Positions 1,040 through 5,233 of a DNA stretch of 5,233 nt are shown in pieces. The stretch is taken from positions 1 to 5,233 of the forward strand of contig JAJYOH010000451.1 of the NCBI GenBank assembly GCA_021796315.1, in the 5' to 3' direction. The DNA is from Chloroflexota bacterium. Lineage in GTDB: Bacteria > Chloroflexota > Anaerolineae > Anaerolineales > Villigracilaceae. Every line of letters begins with the position of its first letter. Position 1 is the first letter of the stretch. The translations under genes and the position numbers were made by a program. The notes beneath the pieces are model-generated. The model worked only from the letters and a program-made list of their open reading frames with translations. It was not told where the DNA came from and did no database searches.

Positions 1040-1100
1040 GTACAACGTGCGGGTGTGGAGCGCGTCTTTTGCGCGTCGGGCTCGGCCCGCATGGTTAAAA
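1040..1100 (-). other. attC recombination site of the ferredoxin cassette
   Basis: On the minus strand the site opens with TTTTAAC and closes with GTTGTAC, close to the consensus boxes RYYYAAC and GTTRRRY. Inside them TGCGGG pairs with CCCGCA. A central GCGC/GCGC stem follows, and the left arm has extra unpaired bases (CAT against AC next to the boxes, and an unpaired run before the inner stem), the asymmetry that guides integrase in known attC sites. The site is about 84% identical to 4682-4741 over 51 aligned positions by eye. It lies 79 bp after the ferredoxin stop codon and 15 nt before the dinB ATG, so it is the last site of the array. Confidence 0.82.
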
Positions 1101-1105
1101 TCATT

Positions 1106-1132
1106 GTCGGGTTTTACTTCGTTCTACCCGAC
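1106..1132. repeat. Short palindrome between ferredoxin stop and its attC
   Basis: GTCGGGT (1106-1112) and ACCCGAC (1126-1132) form a perfect 7-bp stem around a 13-nt loop. On the minus strand it reads GTAGGTCGGGT, then the loop, then ACCCGACA. I recall a widespread proteobacterial intergenic palindrome with this outline, but the family assignment is from memory. It could act as a transcript-end hairpin, but no T-run follows on the minus strand, so I do not call it an intrinsic terminator. Confidence 0.5.
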
Positions 1133-1179
1133 CTACCGTCTACTATTCATTTTTGGATGTTCGTCAGGAAGTCCCGCAT

Positions 1180-1980
1180 CTACAAATATGTTTCCGGTTC
1201 CTTCCTTGCACTGCACTTCACGGTCAGCTGCGCCATAACCTGCTGGATCCTGGGCTCCTGCATTACTCTCGCCTTGGTCGGGCAGATCTTGACGCAGGCG
1301 CAGCATTTGATGCATCCGCTTTTGTCCGTAACAATGGCACTCCCCACGGTAATCACTCCAGTCGGGCATACCGAGGCGCATTGTCCGCACTTAGTGCAGA
1401 TCTCCTCGATGGTATCTGGCGATATGTTCAACAGTGCCCCGCGTTCCTTGTAGGGGTGATTACCGGGCACGGACAGCGGCGCCATTTCATGTGTCCTGCT
1501 GCTCGCCGAGAGCTTTTCTCGAACCATGCGCCCGAATGCTGTTGCTTTGGCGATATCGTCATTGTCCGGCCGACCGGCAGCCACCGGGGTTGTTGGATTA
1601 GAATAGGAATGTTCGCCGATGAATGCGGCAGCAGCCGTCACCTTGAACCCTGCTTCCGTGACGATATCCCGCAGTTCGATAAGAGCATCCTCGTAAGCCC
1701 TGTTCCCGTAGAGGACTACGATGATCGCCGGGCCGCCATCTCCCTTGAGACCCTGCAATTTCGATATCACGGGGAGCGGTACCCGGCCCGTGTACACGGG
1801 CGACCCGATAATCGCCAACTGGTTCTGATGTATCCTGGGCAGAGCGCCGTTGCTCTTCGCAAAGGTCAGGTCAATGTCCTCGATCGATGGTATTTGAATT
1901 CCCTGGCCGATGGCCTGGACGATCTTCTTCGTTGTCTGAGTAGGGGAGAAGTAGATGGCTTTTGCTGATGTAATGTTCAT
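1180..1980 (-). CDS. Flavodoxin-ferredoxin fusion protein (EFR1-like, two [4Fe-4S] clusters)
   Basis: Predicted cytosolic electron carrier of 266 aa that would pass electrons between its FMN and two iron-sulfur clusters; the partner enzyme is unknown. The N-terminal flavodoxin-like domain has a phosphate-binding loop at 11-19 (FSPTQTTKK), a second FMN loop at 59-68 (GSPVYTGRVP) and a third near 90-100. The C-terminal bacterial-type ferredoxin domain has two full motifs: C195, C198, C201, C205 followed by P206, and C223, C226, C229, C233 followed by P234. The order and length fit the EFR1 (flavodoxin plus 2[4Fe-4S]) family, and no ligand is missing. The ATG is preceded by AAGGAAGG at 1989-1996 with 8 nt spacing, which supports this start. 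The gene is flanked by attC candidates on both sides, so it reads as a complete cassette of about 984 bp. It is large and well characterised in type for cassette cargo. Confidence 0.92.
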   Translation of the reverse strand: MNITSAKAIYFSPTQTTKKIVQAIGQGIQIPSIEDIDLTFAKSNGALPRIHQNQLAIIGSPVYTGRVPLPVISKLQGLKGDGGPAIIVVLYGNRAYEDALIELRDIVTEAGFKVTAAAAFIGEHSYSNPTTPVAAGRPDNDDIAKATAFGRMVREKLSASSRTHEMAPLSVPGNHPYKERGALLNISPDTIEEICTKCGQCASVCPTGVITVGSAIVTDKSGCIKCCACVKICPTKARVMQEPRIQQVMAQLTVKCSARKEPETYL

Positions 1981-2023
1981 GAGGTTGTCCTTCCTTGTGC
2001 GGTAATGAATATGGATTAAATTG

Positions 2024-2082
2024 AGTGAACGCGCCGGTCACGCGCCGCCTTTGGCGCGTCGCTGTGGACCGGCTGGTTGGAA
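2024..2082 (-). other. attC recombination site after the three-gene cluster
   Basis: On the minus strand this 59-bp site runs from TTCCAAC to GTTCACT. GCCGGTC pairs perfectly with GACCGGC, and ACGCGCC pairs with GGCGCGT around a 6-nt loop. The left arm carries a 7-nt unpaired run (CACAGCG) absent from the right arm, matching the asymmetry of the other two sites. AAC/GTT pair at the outer end, separated from the stem by two unpaired bases per side, as in 4682-4741. The outer boxes match the consensus less well than the other two. It starts 19 nt after the stop codon of the gene at 2102-2536 and ends 43 nt before the ferredoxin start. Confidence 0.75.
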
Positions 2083-2101
2083 TCATCTTCGATTCAGCTC
2101 G

Positions 2102-2536
2102 TCAAGAGAAAGAAAGGAGGCGAAGGATAGCATCGTGATAGTATTTTCTCTTGGTTCTAGCCACATCAGTATTTTCGGACAGTGCTATCGCGTACACACT
2201 GCCGTACTCCGTTGCTATGTCGTTTGACTCTTTATAATGTGCTACAGCGCGCTCAAATGCTTTTCGACGCCAGAGAGGAACATGGGGGCGGTAATTGCTT
2301 ATAGCTGCGATAATCCCATTATGGCAACTGGAAGCAATCATCGCAAGAGTGCATGTGGGGTTTTCGGTGATGTTCAGAATAACATCATCAAATGCGTGGC
2401 GATAAGCAGACCGTGAAGCGTTATGACTTTTGATATGCTCAGCGATTCGAGGACTAAGCCACCACGCTAAGAGTACGCCACACACACCGAGAAGCCACAG
2501 GTCGGATGTAGAAAAGGTGATGCCAAGGAGATTCAT
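2102..2536 (-). CDS. Membrane-anchored protein of unknown function (144 aa)
   Basis: Not assigned to a named family. One hydrophobic segment at 11-28 (LWLLGVCGVLLAWWLSPR) should anchor it in the inner membrane, and the following positive residues suggest the C-terminal part stays in the cytoplasm. That part (about 30-144) appears mainly helical and rich in His, Arg and aromatic residues (NYRPHVPLWRRKAFERAVAHY, about 81-101, is the most distinctive stretch). I have an impression of similar anchored small proteins in other environmental genomes, but no function is known to me. The ATG is fixed by an in-frame TAA two codons upstream; the only ribosome-site candidate, AAGGTGG at 2550-2556, is a distant 13 nt away. 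It is the last gene before attC 2024-2082, 60 bp after the zinc-ribbon gene. Confidence 0.8.
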   Translation of the reverse strand: MNLLGITFSTSDLWLLGVCGVLLAWWLSPRIAEHIKSHNASRSAYRHAFDDVILNITENPTCTLAMIASSCHNGIIAAISNYRPHVPLWRRKAFERAVAHYKESNDIATEYGSVYAIALSENTDVARTKRKYYHDAILRLLSFS

Positions 2537-2595
2537 TGGTTAATCAAAACCACCTTCATTATTATTTGACCTCTTGCGTTTAGGCAGTGATCTAA

Positions 2596-3054
2596 TCATA
2601 CGTTGACAAACAAAAACCTGCGTTTTTTCCAATAAATGTAATTTGCCCAAATCCACAAGCTTGCTGCGGTTATTCGTCCAAAATGGCCAGCACTTAAGGC
2701 CTCATATCCAGGGCCGGGCATCACATAAACGATAAACATAAGTGCAATATTAACCCAGTTCAATTTCCAACCCCACAAGGTTTTTTTATACAGTCCATAG
2801 AATAAAATCAAATCTAATGCGGCCCAGCATATCATTATAATTGACAGAAAAGGCACTTTTTTAAAAAATGCCACCGCACCTAACACGCTGATGACTGCGC
2901 CGAGTGGAAGAGTATATAGCCAAAACTTCATCCATTTGGTGCCAACTGGTTGTTCTTGGTTGAGCGATACTGCTTTAACGTCGTGTAGAGCACCACACCG
3001 TAAACATTTTTCATTTTTTTCTTCTATTTCATTACCACATTCCACGCAGTTCAT
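2596..3054 (-). CDS. Zinc-ribbon membrane protein of unknown function
   Basis: A 152-aa protein with a short N-terminal zinc ribbon, C3-x2-C6-G and C17-x2-C20-G, followed by a linker and about four membrane helices (near 44-64, 68-89, 97-113, 127-142). It ends in a basic tail (WKKRRF). Zinc-ribbon plus multi-helix proteins are common in bacteria and usually uncharacterised; the ribbon would face the cytoplasm and might mediate contacts with partners, which is inference. The start is supported by AAAGGAAGG ending 6 nt before the ATG. It lies 40 bp after the exported-protein gene 3095-3550 and 60 bp before the gene at 2102-2536, with no good attC on either side, so these three genes may be co-transcribed as one unit. 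The sequence is noticeably A+T-rich compared with dinB. Confidence 0.85.
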   Translation of the reverse strand: MNCVECGNEIEEKNEKCLRCGALHDVKAVSLNQEQPVGTKWMKFWLYTLPLGAVISVLGAVAFFKKVPFLSIIMICWAALDLILFYGLYKKTLWGWKLNWVNIALMFIVYVMPGPGYEALSAGHFGRITAASLWIWANYIYWKKRRFLFVNV

Positions 3055-3094
3055 ATCGCCTTCCTTTCGCAGGGGTTATAACCTCAGAGTGGCG

Positions 3095-3550
3095 TCATTT
3101 GTTGCTTTTAGCTTTTGAATTATCTTTATTTTGAATTTTCTTAAGTTCATTATTAATTAAATCACGCGCGGACAACCAGTTTTTAGCATCAGTTGGTTCG
3201 AATGAAACAAATCCGGGAAGGATCATGCATATATTCTTACTGTCGATCCAAATAAGTAAATTCGCCATTCCATTCTTCATTTCGATGATATAGACTGTTA
3301 CATCATCAAGGCCGGGTTGGGATGATAAATACTTTCTTTTAGGTGGAATTAACATTTTCATCTGTCCGCTCTCGGGGAGAGAGCGAATAAGTGACTCCAC
3401 TGCTTTTACAACATCATCGCTTGTTTTGCAGGAAGCATAAAGGATTGGTTCCTCTTTATTGCCATTGGTGGCTGCTGTCTCTGCAAAACAACTGATTGTA
3501 AATGAGGCCGATAATATAAAAATAATTATAAAGGCAACTATTCGTTTCAT
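3095..3550 (-). CDS. Exported protein of unknown function (151 aa)
   Basis: The N-terminus is a signal peptide: basic MKR, a hydrophobic core at 4-20, and a likely signal peptidase I site after CFA at residue 23. C21 follows T-I-S, a poor lipobox, so a soluble periplasmic protein is favoured over a lipoprotein. The mature part (about 24-151) has a mixed helix/strand pattern, with probable strands at 84-90 (VTVYIIE) and 96-112, and a very polar Lys/Asn-rich tail from about 136. No enzymatic motif is visible and I do not recognise the family. The start is strongly supported by an AGGAGGGGAGC ribosome site directly before the ATG. It is the first gene after the palindromic gap 3551-3842 and probably leads a three-gene unit with the two genes that follow. 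Confidence 0.82.
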   Translation of the reverse strand: MKRIVAFIIIFILSASFTISCFAETAATNGNKEEPILYASCKTSDDVVKAVESLIRSLPESGQMKMLIPPKRKYLSSQPGLDDVTVYIIEMKNGMANLLIWIDSKNICMILPGFVSFEPTDAKNWLSARDLINNELKKIQNKDNSKAKSNK

Positions 3551-3560
3551 GCTCCCCTCC
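3551..3560 (-). promoter_or_regulatory. Strong ribosome binding site for the exported protein
   Basis: On the minus strand GGAGGGGAGC lies immediately before the ATG at 3550, preceded by AAAA. It is the best Shine-Dalgarno match in the window and fixes that start. It also separates the real gene from the palindromic sequence upstream. Confidence 0.7.
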
Positions 3561-3625
3561 TTTTAGCCTTTTGACTTTTAGGCCCGCTCAGCCTCCTTGT
3601 AGGTCTGGAGCGTCTGGTTGGTAAA

Positions 3626-3763
3626 TTCCAACACCCCAGGTGAGCGGCTTACCCCGAAGGGGTAAAGTCCGTCTCGACCGGTTTGATGGCTCGCGCTGCT
3701 TTCGCGCGAGTCGTCAGGTCGGCCGCTCACCTGGGGTGATGGGCCGCGCGAAGCGCGGGCCAT
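3626..3763. repeat. Nested palindromic element, possible degenerate large attC or MITE
   Basis: A 17-bp perfect inverted repeat (3632-3648 and 3722-3738; CACCCCAGGTGAGCGGC) extends to about 20 pairs with one mismatch if 3628-3630 and 3740-3742 are added. Its interior holds a 7-bp hairpin with a GAA loop (3649-3665) and a second one at 3690-3710 (CTCGCGC/GCGCGAG). A further hairpin follows at 3739-3763, with CCGCGC/GCGCGG around GAA. Read on the minus strand, GCCCATC (3738-3744) and GTTGGAA (3626-3632) could be the outer boxes of a 119-bp attC whose AAC has mutated to ATC. Alternatively it is a small non-autonomous mobile or REP-like element. The sequence alone does not decide. Confidence 0.6.
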
Positions 3764-3772
3764 TGCGAGCGT

Positions 3773-3816
3773 GAGGAACGCGGTTCACAGCGTTTCTCTC
3801 GACGCGATTGTTATAA
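3773..3816 (-). other. Degenerate attC-like site after the 271-aa gene
   Basis: On the minus strand TTATAAC (3810-3816) and GTTCCTC (3773-3779) stand in the box positions, with short CGCG/CGCG pairing next to them. The stretch around 3798-3813 (CTCGAC then CG, then GTTA) matches the corresponding part of attC 4682-4741. The site is only 44 bp and its stem is poor. It lies 26 bp after the stop codon of the gene at 3843-4658, where an attC is expected. It could be a decayed site or chance. Confidence 0.35.
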
Positions 3817-3842
3817 ATTATATGACATACTCATTCAAATTA

Positions 3843-4658
3843 TTAGTCTGCGTCATTGCCAGTATCGTAGTAAGCCAGCAAGCCTTTGTTGAAATCGGGA
3901 CCAGTGGAATAAAGGCAAATACTGGTGGTATGCTTTTGCTTGAAAGCGTCGAAATACTCAACTTTTCCGCTGATAAAGATAGCGCTTTGTTTGTTACGAA
4001 TAGATTCAATCTCAGCTTGATTCAAATAATCTGGAAGGCACGCATACTGTCGAATATATTCACTAGGCGCGAGAGCCGACCGAGCAGAAGAGGAGAGTTG
4101 TTCGGCGTGGTCAATTTCGGTATCCAACGGGAACTTATAAAGACCGATATACAGGGAACAACCAAGGCCATAGGCGGGCGTTTGACCGAAATTTTTTATC
4201 ATGAGTGGTACGGATCTATACCAGTCGGCATTATCGGGCATGTTTTCATCAATTCGTGGGAACACATAAGCACGCAATTCTTGCGATGCGGTTTTCTCTG
4301 CACCAAGAACGAGCTGACGGGTAGACCACCACAACAGGCCAGTAGCGATGAACAGCAAGAACGTAAACGTCGCAACGGGATCGGTTCTGAGTTTGTACCA
4401 CCAGCTTTCATCAGGGGCTTTGCCATTTTTCTTATCTTGATTTTCTGTATGATTGGCATTCAGTGGACCGCCGACACTGGATACCGTTTTATTAACAGCC
4501 GAAGGAATATCATTGGGTATATTTTTTATGGTCTTTGTGTCTGTTGTTGGTGTCTTGCGGGATGTGTTTGTCTTTTCGCTGGTCAGATTCTCGGCACCCG
4601 ATGAAACAGCGTTGAAATTGCATATCAGCATTATGACTAAAATGAAAAGTCGAATCAT
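3843..4658 (-). CDS. Membrane-anchored protein with extracytoplasmic or cytosolic beta domain (271 aa)
   Basis: No named family is assigned. Residues 1-21 look like a signal peptide (MIRLFILVIMLICNFNAVSSG). A long polar Thr/Asn/Lys-rich linker (about 22-85) follows, then one clear membrane helix at 94-112 and a C-terminal domain at about 128-265 that appears rich in beta strands. The core of that domain, RAYVFP (129-134) and IKNFGQTPAY (154-163), resembles a common group of uncharacterised proteins in which a membrane helix precedes an RxYV...V+NFGxTPA module; this is from memory. With a cleaved signal the linker would be periplasmic and the beta domain cytoplasmic; an uncleaved first helix gives the same sidedness. 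The ATG is supported by GGAG at 4664-4667 (5 nt spacing) and lies 23 nt after attC 4682-4741, so this begins a new cassette. Its own attC is unclear. Confidence 0.83.
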   Translation of the reverse strand: MIRLFILVIMLICNFNAVSSGAENLTSEKTNTSRKTPTTDTKTIKNIPNDIPSAVNKTVSSVGGPLNANHTENQDKKNGKAPDESWWYKLRTDPVATFTFLLFIATGLLWWSTRQLVLGAEKTASQELRAYVFPRIDENMPDNADWYRSVPLMIKNFGQTPAYGLGCSLYIGLYKFPLDTEIDHAEQLSSSARSALAPSEYIRQYACLPDYLNQAEIESIRNKQSAIFISGKVEYFDAFKQKHTTSICLYSTGPDFNKGLLAYYDTGNDAD

Positions 4659-4681
4659 GTAGTCTCCAGTTTTTGTTTCGC

Positions 4682-4741
4682 GTATAACGCGCGGGTGAGA
4701 CGCGCGTCTTGTGCGCGTCGGACTCGACCCGCAGGTTAAGG
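4682..4741 (-). other. attC recombination site of the 120-aa protein cassette
   Basis: The best site in the window. On the minus strand it runs from CCTTAAC to GTTATAC (60 bp). GCGGGT pairs with ACCCGC and GACGCGC pairs perfectly with GCGCGTC around a 7-nt loop. A 7-nt unpaired run (CGAGTCC) on the left arm faces only two bases on the right. It begins 2 nt after the TAA of the preceding gene, the tight packing typical of cassettes, and ends 23 nt before the next start codon. It shares the GACGCGC-ANAA-GACGCGC core with 1040-1100. Confidence 0.85.
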
Positions 4742-4743
4742 AA

Positions 4744-5106
4744 TTATTGTTGTTTTTTATTTTTCCCTATACCAGGGGCGTGAAACATTACGTCATTCCA
4801 GATCAAATCACCGGCATTATCTCCTAACAGGAGTTTTCGGACTTCTATTACGGCTTCAAATCGCTCTTTCGGGGTGGGACTAGTCGCTGCCTTGATGACT
4901 TTTTTATAAATATCGGCAGGAAGCCACATTGCGAGTTCCCACCCCAATTGATTGACTCTATCGTATTCGTTTTGCGAACTGTTTTCTTTTAAATTGATTT
5001 GAAGTGCCATATACTCGGCAACTTTTTCAGCTCTTTCTTTTACTTTTAAGTTATATTTGTAATCTTCTATAATCTTGTCGTATTTGGCTGCAATAGATTT
5101 TTCCAA
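4744..5106 (-). CDS. Small cytosolic helical protein of unknown function (120 aa)
   Basis: No signal peptide or membrane segment. Residues 1-40 form a charged amphipathic helix that could be a coiled coil (KVKERAEKVAEYMALQ at 21-36). A second helical block follows with NQLGWELAMWLPADI (52-66) and EVRKLLLG (88-95). I recall uncharacterised small proteins with this pattern (an AEKVAEY-like helix, a W-E-x-x-x-W-L-P core, a VRKxLLG end), some with an N-terminal membrane helix, but have no function for them. The start is TTG at 5106, since no ATG or GTG occurs in frame back to the TAA near 5163-5165. A possible ribosome site, AGAGGGG (5118-5124), is 11 nt upstream. A 5' truncation during cassette formation would also explain the missing ATG. 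The attC follows the stop codon by 2 nt. Confidence 0.78.
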   Translation of the reverse strand: MEKSIAAKYDKIIEDYKYNLKVKERAEKVAEYMALQINLKENSSQNEYDRVNQLGWELAMWLPADIYKKVIKAATSPTPKERFEAVIEVRKLLLGDNAGDLIWNDVMFHAPGIGKNKKQQ

Positions 5107-5117
5107 TGTTAAGTGGA

Positions 5118-5124
5118 CCCCTCT
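5118..5124 (-). promoter_or_regulatory. Candidate ribosome binding site for the TTG-started gene
   Basis: AGAGGGG on the minus strand, 11 nt before TTG at 5106. The spacing is longer than ideal, but it is the only purine-rich ribosome-site candidate upstream and the main support for the TTG start. Confidence 0.4.
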
Positions 5125-5153
5125 GTCAAGACAATAAAGAGCCGAGTTTAAGA

Positions 5154-5199
5154 TGGTAACCGGTTAAGCCGCAGCGGCATGGCGCTGCCCCAGTTTCTA
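5154..5199 (-). other. Possible short attC of the preceding cassette
   Basis: On the minus strand AACTGG and CCGGTT pair at the ends (one G-T pair), and GCAGCG pairs with CGCTGC around a 6-nt loop. A 7-nt bulge containing CTTAA is on the right arm. The right box is GTTACCA; the left box (TAGAAAC) keeps only the final AAC. At 46 bp it is shorter than the usual 57 bp minimum. A minus-strand stop (TAG, 5203-5205) 3 nt before it could end the previous cassette's gene (last residues SKRQKSFK), but too little is visible to call that gene. Confidence 0.4.
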
Positions 5200-5233
5200 A
5201 TACTACTTGAAGCTTTTCTGTCTCTTTGAATTT

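Follow-up and report, generated by a model that had tools for sequence, protein, structure and literature searches.

Positions 1 to 5,233 of contig JAJYOH010000451.1, referred to here in their whole length as the window and assigned to an uncultured Nitrospirota bacterium, contain the end part of a genuine array of integron gene cassettes, confirmed by several folded recombination sites (attC) with conserved boxes and covarying stems. The window is probably the dinB-side, promoter-distal end of a sedentary integron which has an attachment site (attI) but lacks its own integrase gene, located inside an ancestral lexA-dinB operon, with cassettes moved by the integrase IntI in trans. Observations pointing to this are the attC sites, an attI-like core, an exchange at the G|TT crossover point, gene order in relatives and LexA-type boxes. 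According to the proposed scenario, such an integron would have invaded the lexA-dinB operon in a Nitrospirota lineage, and lexA would be expected to the right of position 5233 in this genome. Cassettes, each made up of a gene and a folded attC, would be inserted and excised in the stretch bounded by an attI close to lexA and by the site adjoining dinB, with IntI encoded elsewhere, now or formerly, as the putative catalyst. Transcripts starting at the LexA-repressed lexA promoter may extend through the cassettes as far as dinB.

Recombination sites in the window

Three related sites on the minus strand, 1040-1099 (site 1, the last site of the array), 2024-2082 (site 2) and 4682-4741 (site 3), carry AAC/GTT outer boxes and lie 3' of co-oriented minus-strand genes. 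An earlier note, made from the sequence without database searches, had described these three, and all of them are real; it overlooked a degenerate site at 3758-3816 and a long attC-like structure at 3628-3772, so that the total is five. The crossover point of site 1, G|TT between 1046 and 1045, is placed 21 nt ahead of the dinB start codon, and the site is identical in sequence in the related loci L001 and L002.

Using a generic attC definition of our own (AAC...GTT with pairing arms, score of at least 9.5), three matches were found in the window, compared to a shuffle mean of 1.4. Sites 2 and 3 score 15.3 and 14.6, while the best of 60 dinucleotide shuffles attains 14.3 and 12% of shuffles reach 12. 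The third match, with a score of 11.0, lies inside 3628-3772, and site 1 is missed by this definition, its arms being seemingly shifted by one base. Folded as minus single strands and compared with shuffles, site 2 has a z of -3.1 and site 3 of -4.1; site 1 barely beats shuffles (z -1.2) and is the weakest of the three by fold. Across 17 distinct homologous sites, standard base pairs make up 89.6% of pair cells, and both sides have changed in 10 of the 15 pairs. Neither the real paired fraction nor the covariation score was reached by any of 500 shuffles, in an alignment fitted to the model, which favours this result.

A covariance-model search had been proposed in the earlier note as a check. 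Our model, R1, was trained on eight sequences that include the three sites of the window, and their scores (62.6, 79.7 and 72.4 bits for sites 1, 2 and 3) are thus given by construction. An independent test is offered by untrained sites close to intI, and R1 detects them at a distance of ~2 kb, separated from intI by cassette genes, in L118 (72.5 bits) and L117 (63.9 bits). With at most 150 candidates scored per genome, R1 matches were obtained in 11 of 17 genomes of relatives, and the other six had none at E 0.01. A search of the window against Rfam was negative at E ≤1; Rfam is not known to have a general attC family.

Cassette exchange between the window and a relative

Locus L001 belongs to the metagenome-assembled genome (MAG) BP4.bin67 (Nitrospirae). 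The two sequences agree in 2056 of 2076 columns through dinB (99% identical), site 1, the EFR1-like cassette and site 2. Near-identity begins at the G of G|TTCACTC in site 2, at plus-strand coordinate 2030 of the window. From this G on, identity is 99.8% over the next 600 nt; immediately before it there are zero matching bases, and ungapped identity upstream of the breakpoint amounts to 37%, 28% and 27% over 60, 200 and 400 nt, respectively. The 5' halves of the two site-2 attCs can still be aligned with gaps, as can different attCs of one family. Upstream cargo differs, L001 encoding an HSDR_N-like protein of 375 aa and a 363-aa protein without family.

A breakpoint exactly at G|TT matches the prediction for IntI-mediated exchange, whereas there is no reason to expect that homologous recombination between arrays would end at precisely that base. 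This one natural pair is natural evidence of site-specific cassette exchange. Together with covariation of the homologous sites and their occurrence by intI/attI in relatives, it substantiates the cassette array proposed in the earlier note, as well as its end at dinB, which forms the 3' flank and is kept in L001.

The lexA-dinB interval in relatives

A scan for dinB yielded 52 loci, and 31 of them were checked for an upstream lexA. A same-strand lexA precedes dinB in 22 loci. The gap is up to 254 bp in 14 of these (for L024, the lexA match is split in two), which makes lexA-dinB the likely ancestral arrangement; in the remaining eight the gap spans 444-5301 bp. The dinB gene of the window is the probable downstream half of this pair, a relationship unnoticed earlier.

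Two of the eight interrupted intervals, L001 and L003, contain attC cassettes. The segment 4723-5911 of L003 presents an RsgA cassette, in the form of an RsgA GTPase gene between two attC sites, and a broken RsgA relative adjoins a long attC in L074. In genomes G005, G008 and G002, lexA and dinB are on separate contigs, all of which break off in the interval after a few kb; an attC of 74.4 bits is present on the lexA contig of G005, and several attC on each dinB contig of G005 and G008. The order lexA, a small gene termed p122, attI-like site, attC cassettes and dinB is found on one contig in four relatives, G001 (L001, three R1 sites), G060 (L147/L170, one), G034 (L149/L168, two) and G079 (L150/L167, five). 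A tblastn search with one IntI query gave no match in the lexA-dinB interval of any of the four.

This gene order bears on the possibility that the window is part of an ordinary complete chromosomal integron, with intI and attI directly right of 5233 and dinB at the far end by chance. Complete intI-attI-attC integrons do exist in relatives (G005, contig C74, and G008, contig C12), and IntI is over the curated cut-off in 38 of 198 genomes of the phylum (42 at E ≤1e-60). However, the far side in the four one-contig relatives, 99%-identical L001 included, is attI-p122-lexA without IntI match, and we regard a complete integron as unlikely. The earlier note had placed both intI and attI to the right of the window; attI would agree with the attI-like site on the far side in relatives, and intI at this place is not supported.

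p122 and the attI-like core

The gene p122 encodes 115 aa (122 aa if counted from the TTG start), with a weak DUF5710 match under the cut-off. It has 1045 database homologues at E 0.001, and 21 matches in 12 of the 198 genomes of the phylum. Eight of these 21 are downstream of a same-strand lexA (L001, L108, L109, L110, L147, L149, L150 and L156), six are beside a divergent intI (L113, L120, L121, L148, L151 and L159), and the remaining seven have neither gene within the stretch examined. IntI (E ≤1e-60) is present in 10 of the 12 genomes with p122 against 32 of the 186 without it (Fisher p 3e-6, kinship not controlled).

Behind most p122 matches follow AT-rich palindromic repeats, locus-specific in sequence, and then the attI-like core. 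This succession is seen at L001:2287-2631 (to 2770), L113, L120, L121, L147-L152, L154 and L157. A degenerate attI pattern, built after inspecting the sequences, matches 12 of 16 loci at 89-139 bp past the p122 match; in L110, missed by the pattern, CAATTACTTG|TTCTCCC can be recognized by eye. In G005, the core CAATTACTTG|TT is identical at the lexA-side site (contig C71) and in the true integron beside intI (C74). Palindromes between p122 and attI exceed the mononucleotide-shuffle mean in 15 of 16 loci and the shuffle maximum in only four (L113, L148, L149 and L151); the repeats are obvious on inspection, yet weakly supported by this count.

A single origin of lexA-linked p122 was considered and found unsupported, since on the p122 tree the lexA label has to change three times, with two or more of these changes forced by starred branches. 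The predicted p122 fold (pLDDT 80, pTM 0.47) has its best PDB match at E 1.0 and TM 0.25, and no sequence relative was found in PDB. A match to a Cas12 model (13.4 bits) was too weak to use. The right edge of the window was also tried as the 3' end of a p122 gene and rejected, as the score of 32, compared to a 95% shuffled level of 30 and a maximum of 36, came from alignment to the middle of p122.

The attI-like core also bears on the origin of the array as a cluster of attC sites lacking an integrase (CALIN). As defined in PMC9668308, a CALIN has at least two attC less than 4 kb apart and no intI nearby; the window contains at least two attC at such distances, and no IntI was found in the lexA-dinB intervals of the relatives. 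Off-target insertion, by which IntI would have put cassettes at a secondary lexA-dinB site with no attI involved, is among the three published proposals for CALIN origin (PMC8618304), and the L003 interval, with attC cassettes and no p122 match, would be in accordance with it. Against this, the core on the lexA side in L001, G005, G060, G034 and G079 resembles the core beside intI, and off-target insertion seems to us quite improbable. Retention of an attI-like site in relatives suggests an integrase-less integron rather than attI-free cassettes. Dispersed repeats, such as hairpins of the REP (repetitive extragenic palindrome) type, are a very improbable source of the sites and were rejected on covariation, genome distribution and exchange breakpoint: matches do spread over many contigs (30 in G005 and 23 in G008, within the candidates scored), but the window sites are 3' of genes in one orientation, AAC/GTT is kept while stems covary, homologous sites occur near intI/attI, the exchange breakpoint falls exactly at a site, and six of the 17 genomes are without a match.

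Integrase genes and LexA-type boxes

Among the 29 genomes reached through dinB loci, IntI is over the curated cut-off in 10, and IntI of related genomes belongs to the TIGR02249 family. The sequence GTGAAC-N4-GTTCAC, which we take to be a LexA box, also in view of its position over -35/-10-like hexamers, is exact at lexA promoters of L001, L003, L009, L010, L108, L109 and L110, and directly upstream of dinB in L004. It also occurs, in exact form, upstream of intI in L118 and L121 (50-70 bp) and in L120 (~370 bp). No box with up to two mismatches was found in the lexA-dinB intervals of L001, L003, G060 and G034. The window likewise has no box with fewer than three mismatches, and expression of its dinB is probably either driven by read-through or not coupled to the SOS response. 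Counts of promoter- and terminator-like motifs in the window equal those of shuffled sequence and hence give no information on expression.

A more far-reaching version of the integrase-less integron is speculative. In it, a Nitrospirota lineage would have an integron hard-wired into the SOS master operon, the self-repressed lexA promoter would serve as the cassette promoter and dinB would be expressed through the cassettes. IntI would act in trans under the same LexA control, while p122 and the palindromic repeats might form an unrecognised accessory module marking or controlling attI.

Several observations weigh against an integrase-less integron in the lexA-dinB operon. The window ends at 5233, so lexA, p122 and attI are outside the sequence seen for this genome, and the relatives used are all MAGs or draft assemblies. 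No upstream lexA was detected in nine of the 31 loci; 10 kb were covered in L004, L027 and L049, and 37-5491 bp in the other six. Intervals with attC cassettes do not all give a p122 match, as L003 illustrates, and six of the eight interrupted intervals (L006, L007, L009, L010, L016 and L017) have no R1 match. These six carry other open reading frames (ORFs), RAYT-like by eye in three of them, and the lexA-dinB interval is, by this content, a general insertion hotspot. Toxin-antitoxin-like genes are found in the interval too, BrnT (Pfam) in L003 and others by eye. One of the six, L017, does contain an inverted repeat, with a score of 14.9 under the generic attC definition. A RAYT-like gene (by eye) directly precedes dinB, at a distance of 6-97 bp, in L007, L009, L010 and L027. 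In the one-contig relatives, lexA is matched over only 161 (G034) and 121 (G079) of 197 aa, and p122 is interrupted in G060. In G001, the genome of L001 and the nearest to the window, intI is represented by just two truncated pieces at E ≤1e-60 (264.5 and 237.3 bits against a cut-off of 265), one of them containing a stop codon, and intI is split in G002; IntI may therefore be active or inactive in the lineage of the window today. Finally, the exact boxes upstream of intI are limited to three of 15 intI-bearing stretches scanned, with one mismatch in a fourth.

Cassette genes and the mini-cassette

All recognisable genes of the window are on the minus strand. The fixed 3' flank of the array is dinB (DNA polymerase IV; 2-1024, cut by the window edge), whose product scores 167.5 bits with Pfam IMS and 228.6 bits with the best NCBIfam Pol IV model, below the cut-off of 256. 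Next to site 1 is the cassette gene at 1180-1980, encoding a 266-aa EFR1-like flavodoxin/4Fe-4S protein (NCBIfam EFR1 74.1 bits, marginally below the cut-off of 75; Pfam Fer4 42.7 bits). Beyond site 2 are ORFs of 144 aa without family (2102-2536), of 152 aa with a weak zinc-ribbon N-terminus under the Pfam cut-off (2596-3054), and of 151 aa without family and with a hydrophobic N-terminus by eye (3095-3550). They are followed by an ORF of 271 aa with hydrophobic segments by eye (3843-4658), weakly matching phrog_9607 (E 1e-4), and, beyond site 3, by an ORF of 120 aa without family (4744-5106), which has a TTG start and a stop codon abutting this site. These five proteins have no family above the curated Pfam and NCBIfam cut-offs, only weak matches, in line with the mostly uncharacterised cargo noted earlier; the absence of resistance genes was also borne out, searches of Pfam, NCBIfam and PADLOC bringing up no resistance family. 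GC content is 0.58 in dinB, 0.56 in the EFR1-like gene and 0.36-0.47 in the remaining five ORFs, a spread expected for unrelated cassettes. Cargo at 2102-5106 gave no match on plasmids, and the 271-aa protein has no relative in viral contigs. Near the right edge, a hairpin and TTAACCGG|TTACC at 5150-5200 possibly represent a further degenerate recombination site.

Between the 271-aa and 151-aa genes, all on the minus strand, the degenerate attC of the 271-aa cassette (3758-3816; R1 17.1 bits, E 0.092) abuts the 145-bp segment 3628-3772. The former has AAC at 3810-3812, and its R' box is no longer GTT. The latter appears to be an ORF-less mini-cassette with a long attC and boxes altered to GAT/ATC. 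Its region folds strongly (3600-3748, z -8.2), and a homologue, at L001 4212-4354, is 98.6% identical over 143 bp and placed behind a different gene. The terminal sequence of the window copy is GGGGTG|TTGGAAT, that of the L001 copy GGGGTG|TTAGGC. A relative with AAC...GTT boxes was found in G002 (L074; 78% over 96 bp). In L075, the first hairpin of the mini-cassette (709-738) stands alone behind another attC. Another combination is the chimeric attC at L001 5688-5745, in which the 5' half resembles the short sites and the final 19 bp are identical to the 3' end of the mini-cassette.

Relation to known integrons and significance

With sedentary chromosomal integrons the array shares attC cassettes in a single orientation, an attI core with G|TT and, in related genomes, IntI of TIGR02249. 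Unlike them, attI is beside lexA and p122 instead of intI, as seen in relatives, and the array ends between two genes, lexA and dinB, that form a pair elsewhere. An adjoining intI and dinP have been reported in Betaproteobacteria. Like a CALIN, the array has attC sites without adjacent intI, but relatives retain an attI-like site. As in SOS-regulated integrons, where LexA represses intI, LexA-type boxes are upstream of intI in some relatives; here, in contrast, it is lexA that borders the cassette platform, as seen in relatives, with the lexA promoter facing the cassettes. The mini-cassette is comparable in lacking a gene to the ORF-less cassettes described in PMC6557892, and differs from them in having GAT/ATC instead of GTT/AAC boxes.

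The list of integron-bearing phyla in the 2021 review PMC8618304 does not include Nitrospirota, while attC sites of this phylum are mentioned in PMC9668308, which also states that CALIN cassettes can be moved by IntI in trans. Control of intI by LexA is established (PMC8876359). Among the titles and abstracts listed in searches of open-access literature, none described cassettes in the lexA-dinB interval or a p122 gene at attI. Integrons and CALINs are known; the lexA-dinB location and the p122-attI arrangement look new.

The known route of LexA control over integrons is the intI promoter; in this case, the platform as such seems to lie between lexA and dinB, which encodes a mutagenic polymerase. 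Cassette content could therefore both tune the damage response and be tuned by it. With the attI on the lexA side, nature offers a way to test if an attI separated from its intI can remain active in trans, and p122 is an uncharacterised small gene tied to attI. As an element the array is of an ordinary kind; its position is unusual and may have consequences.

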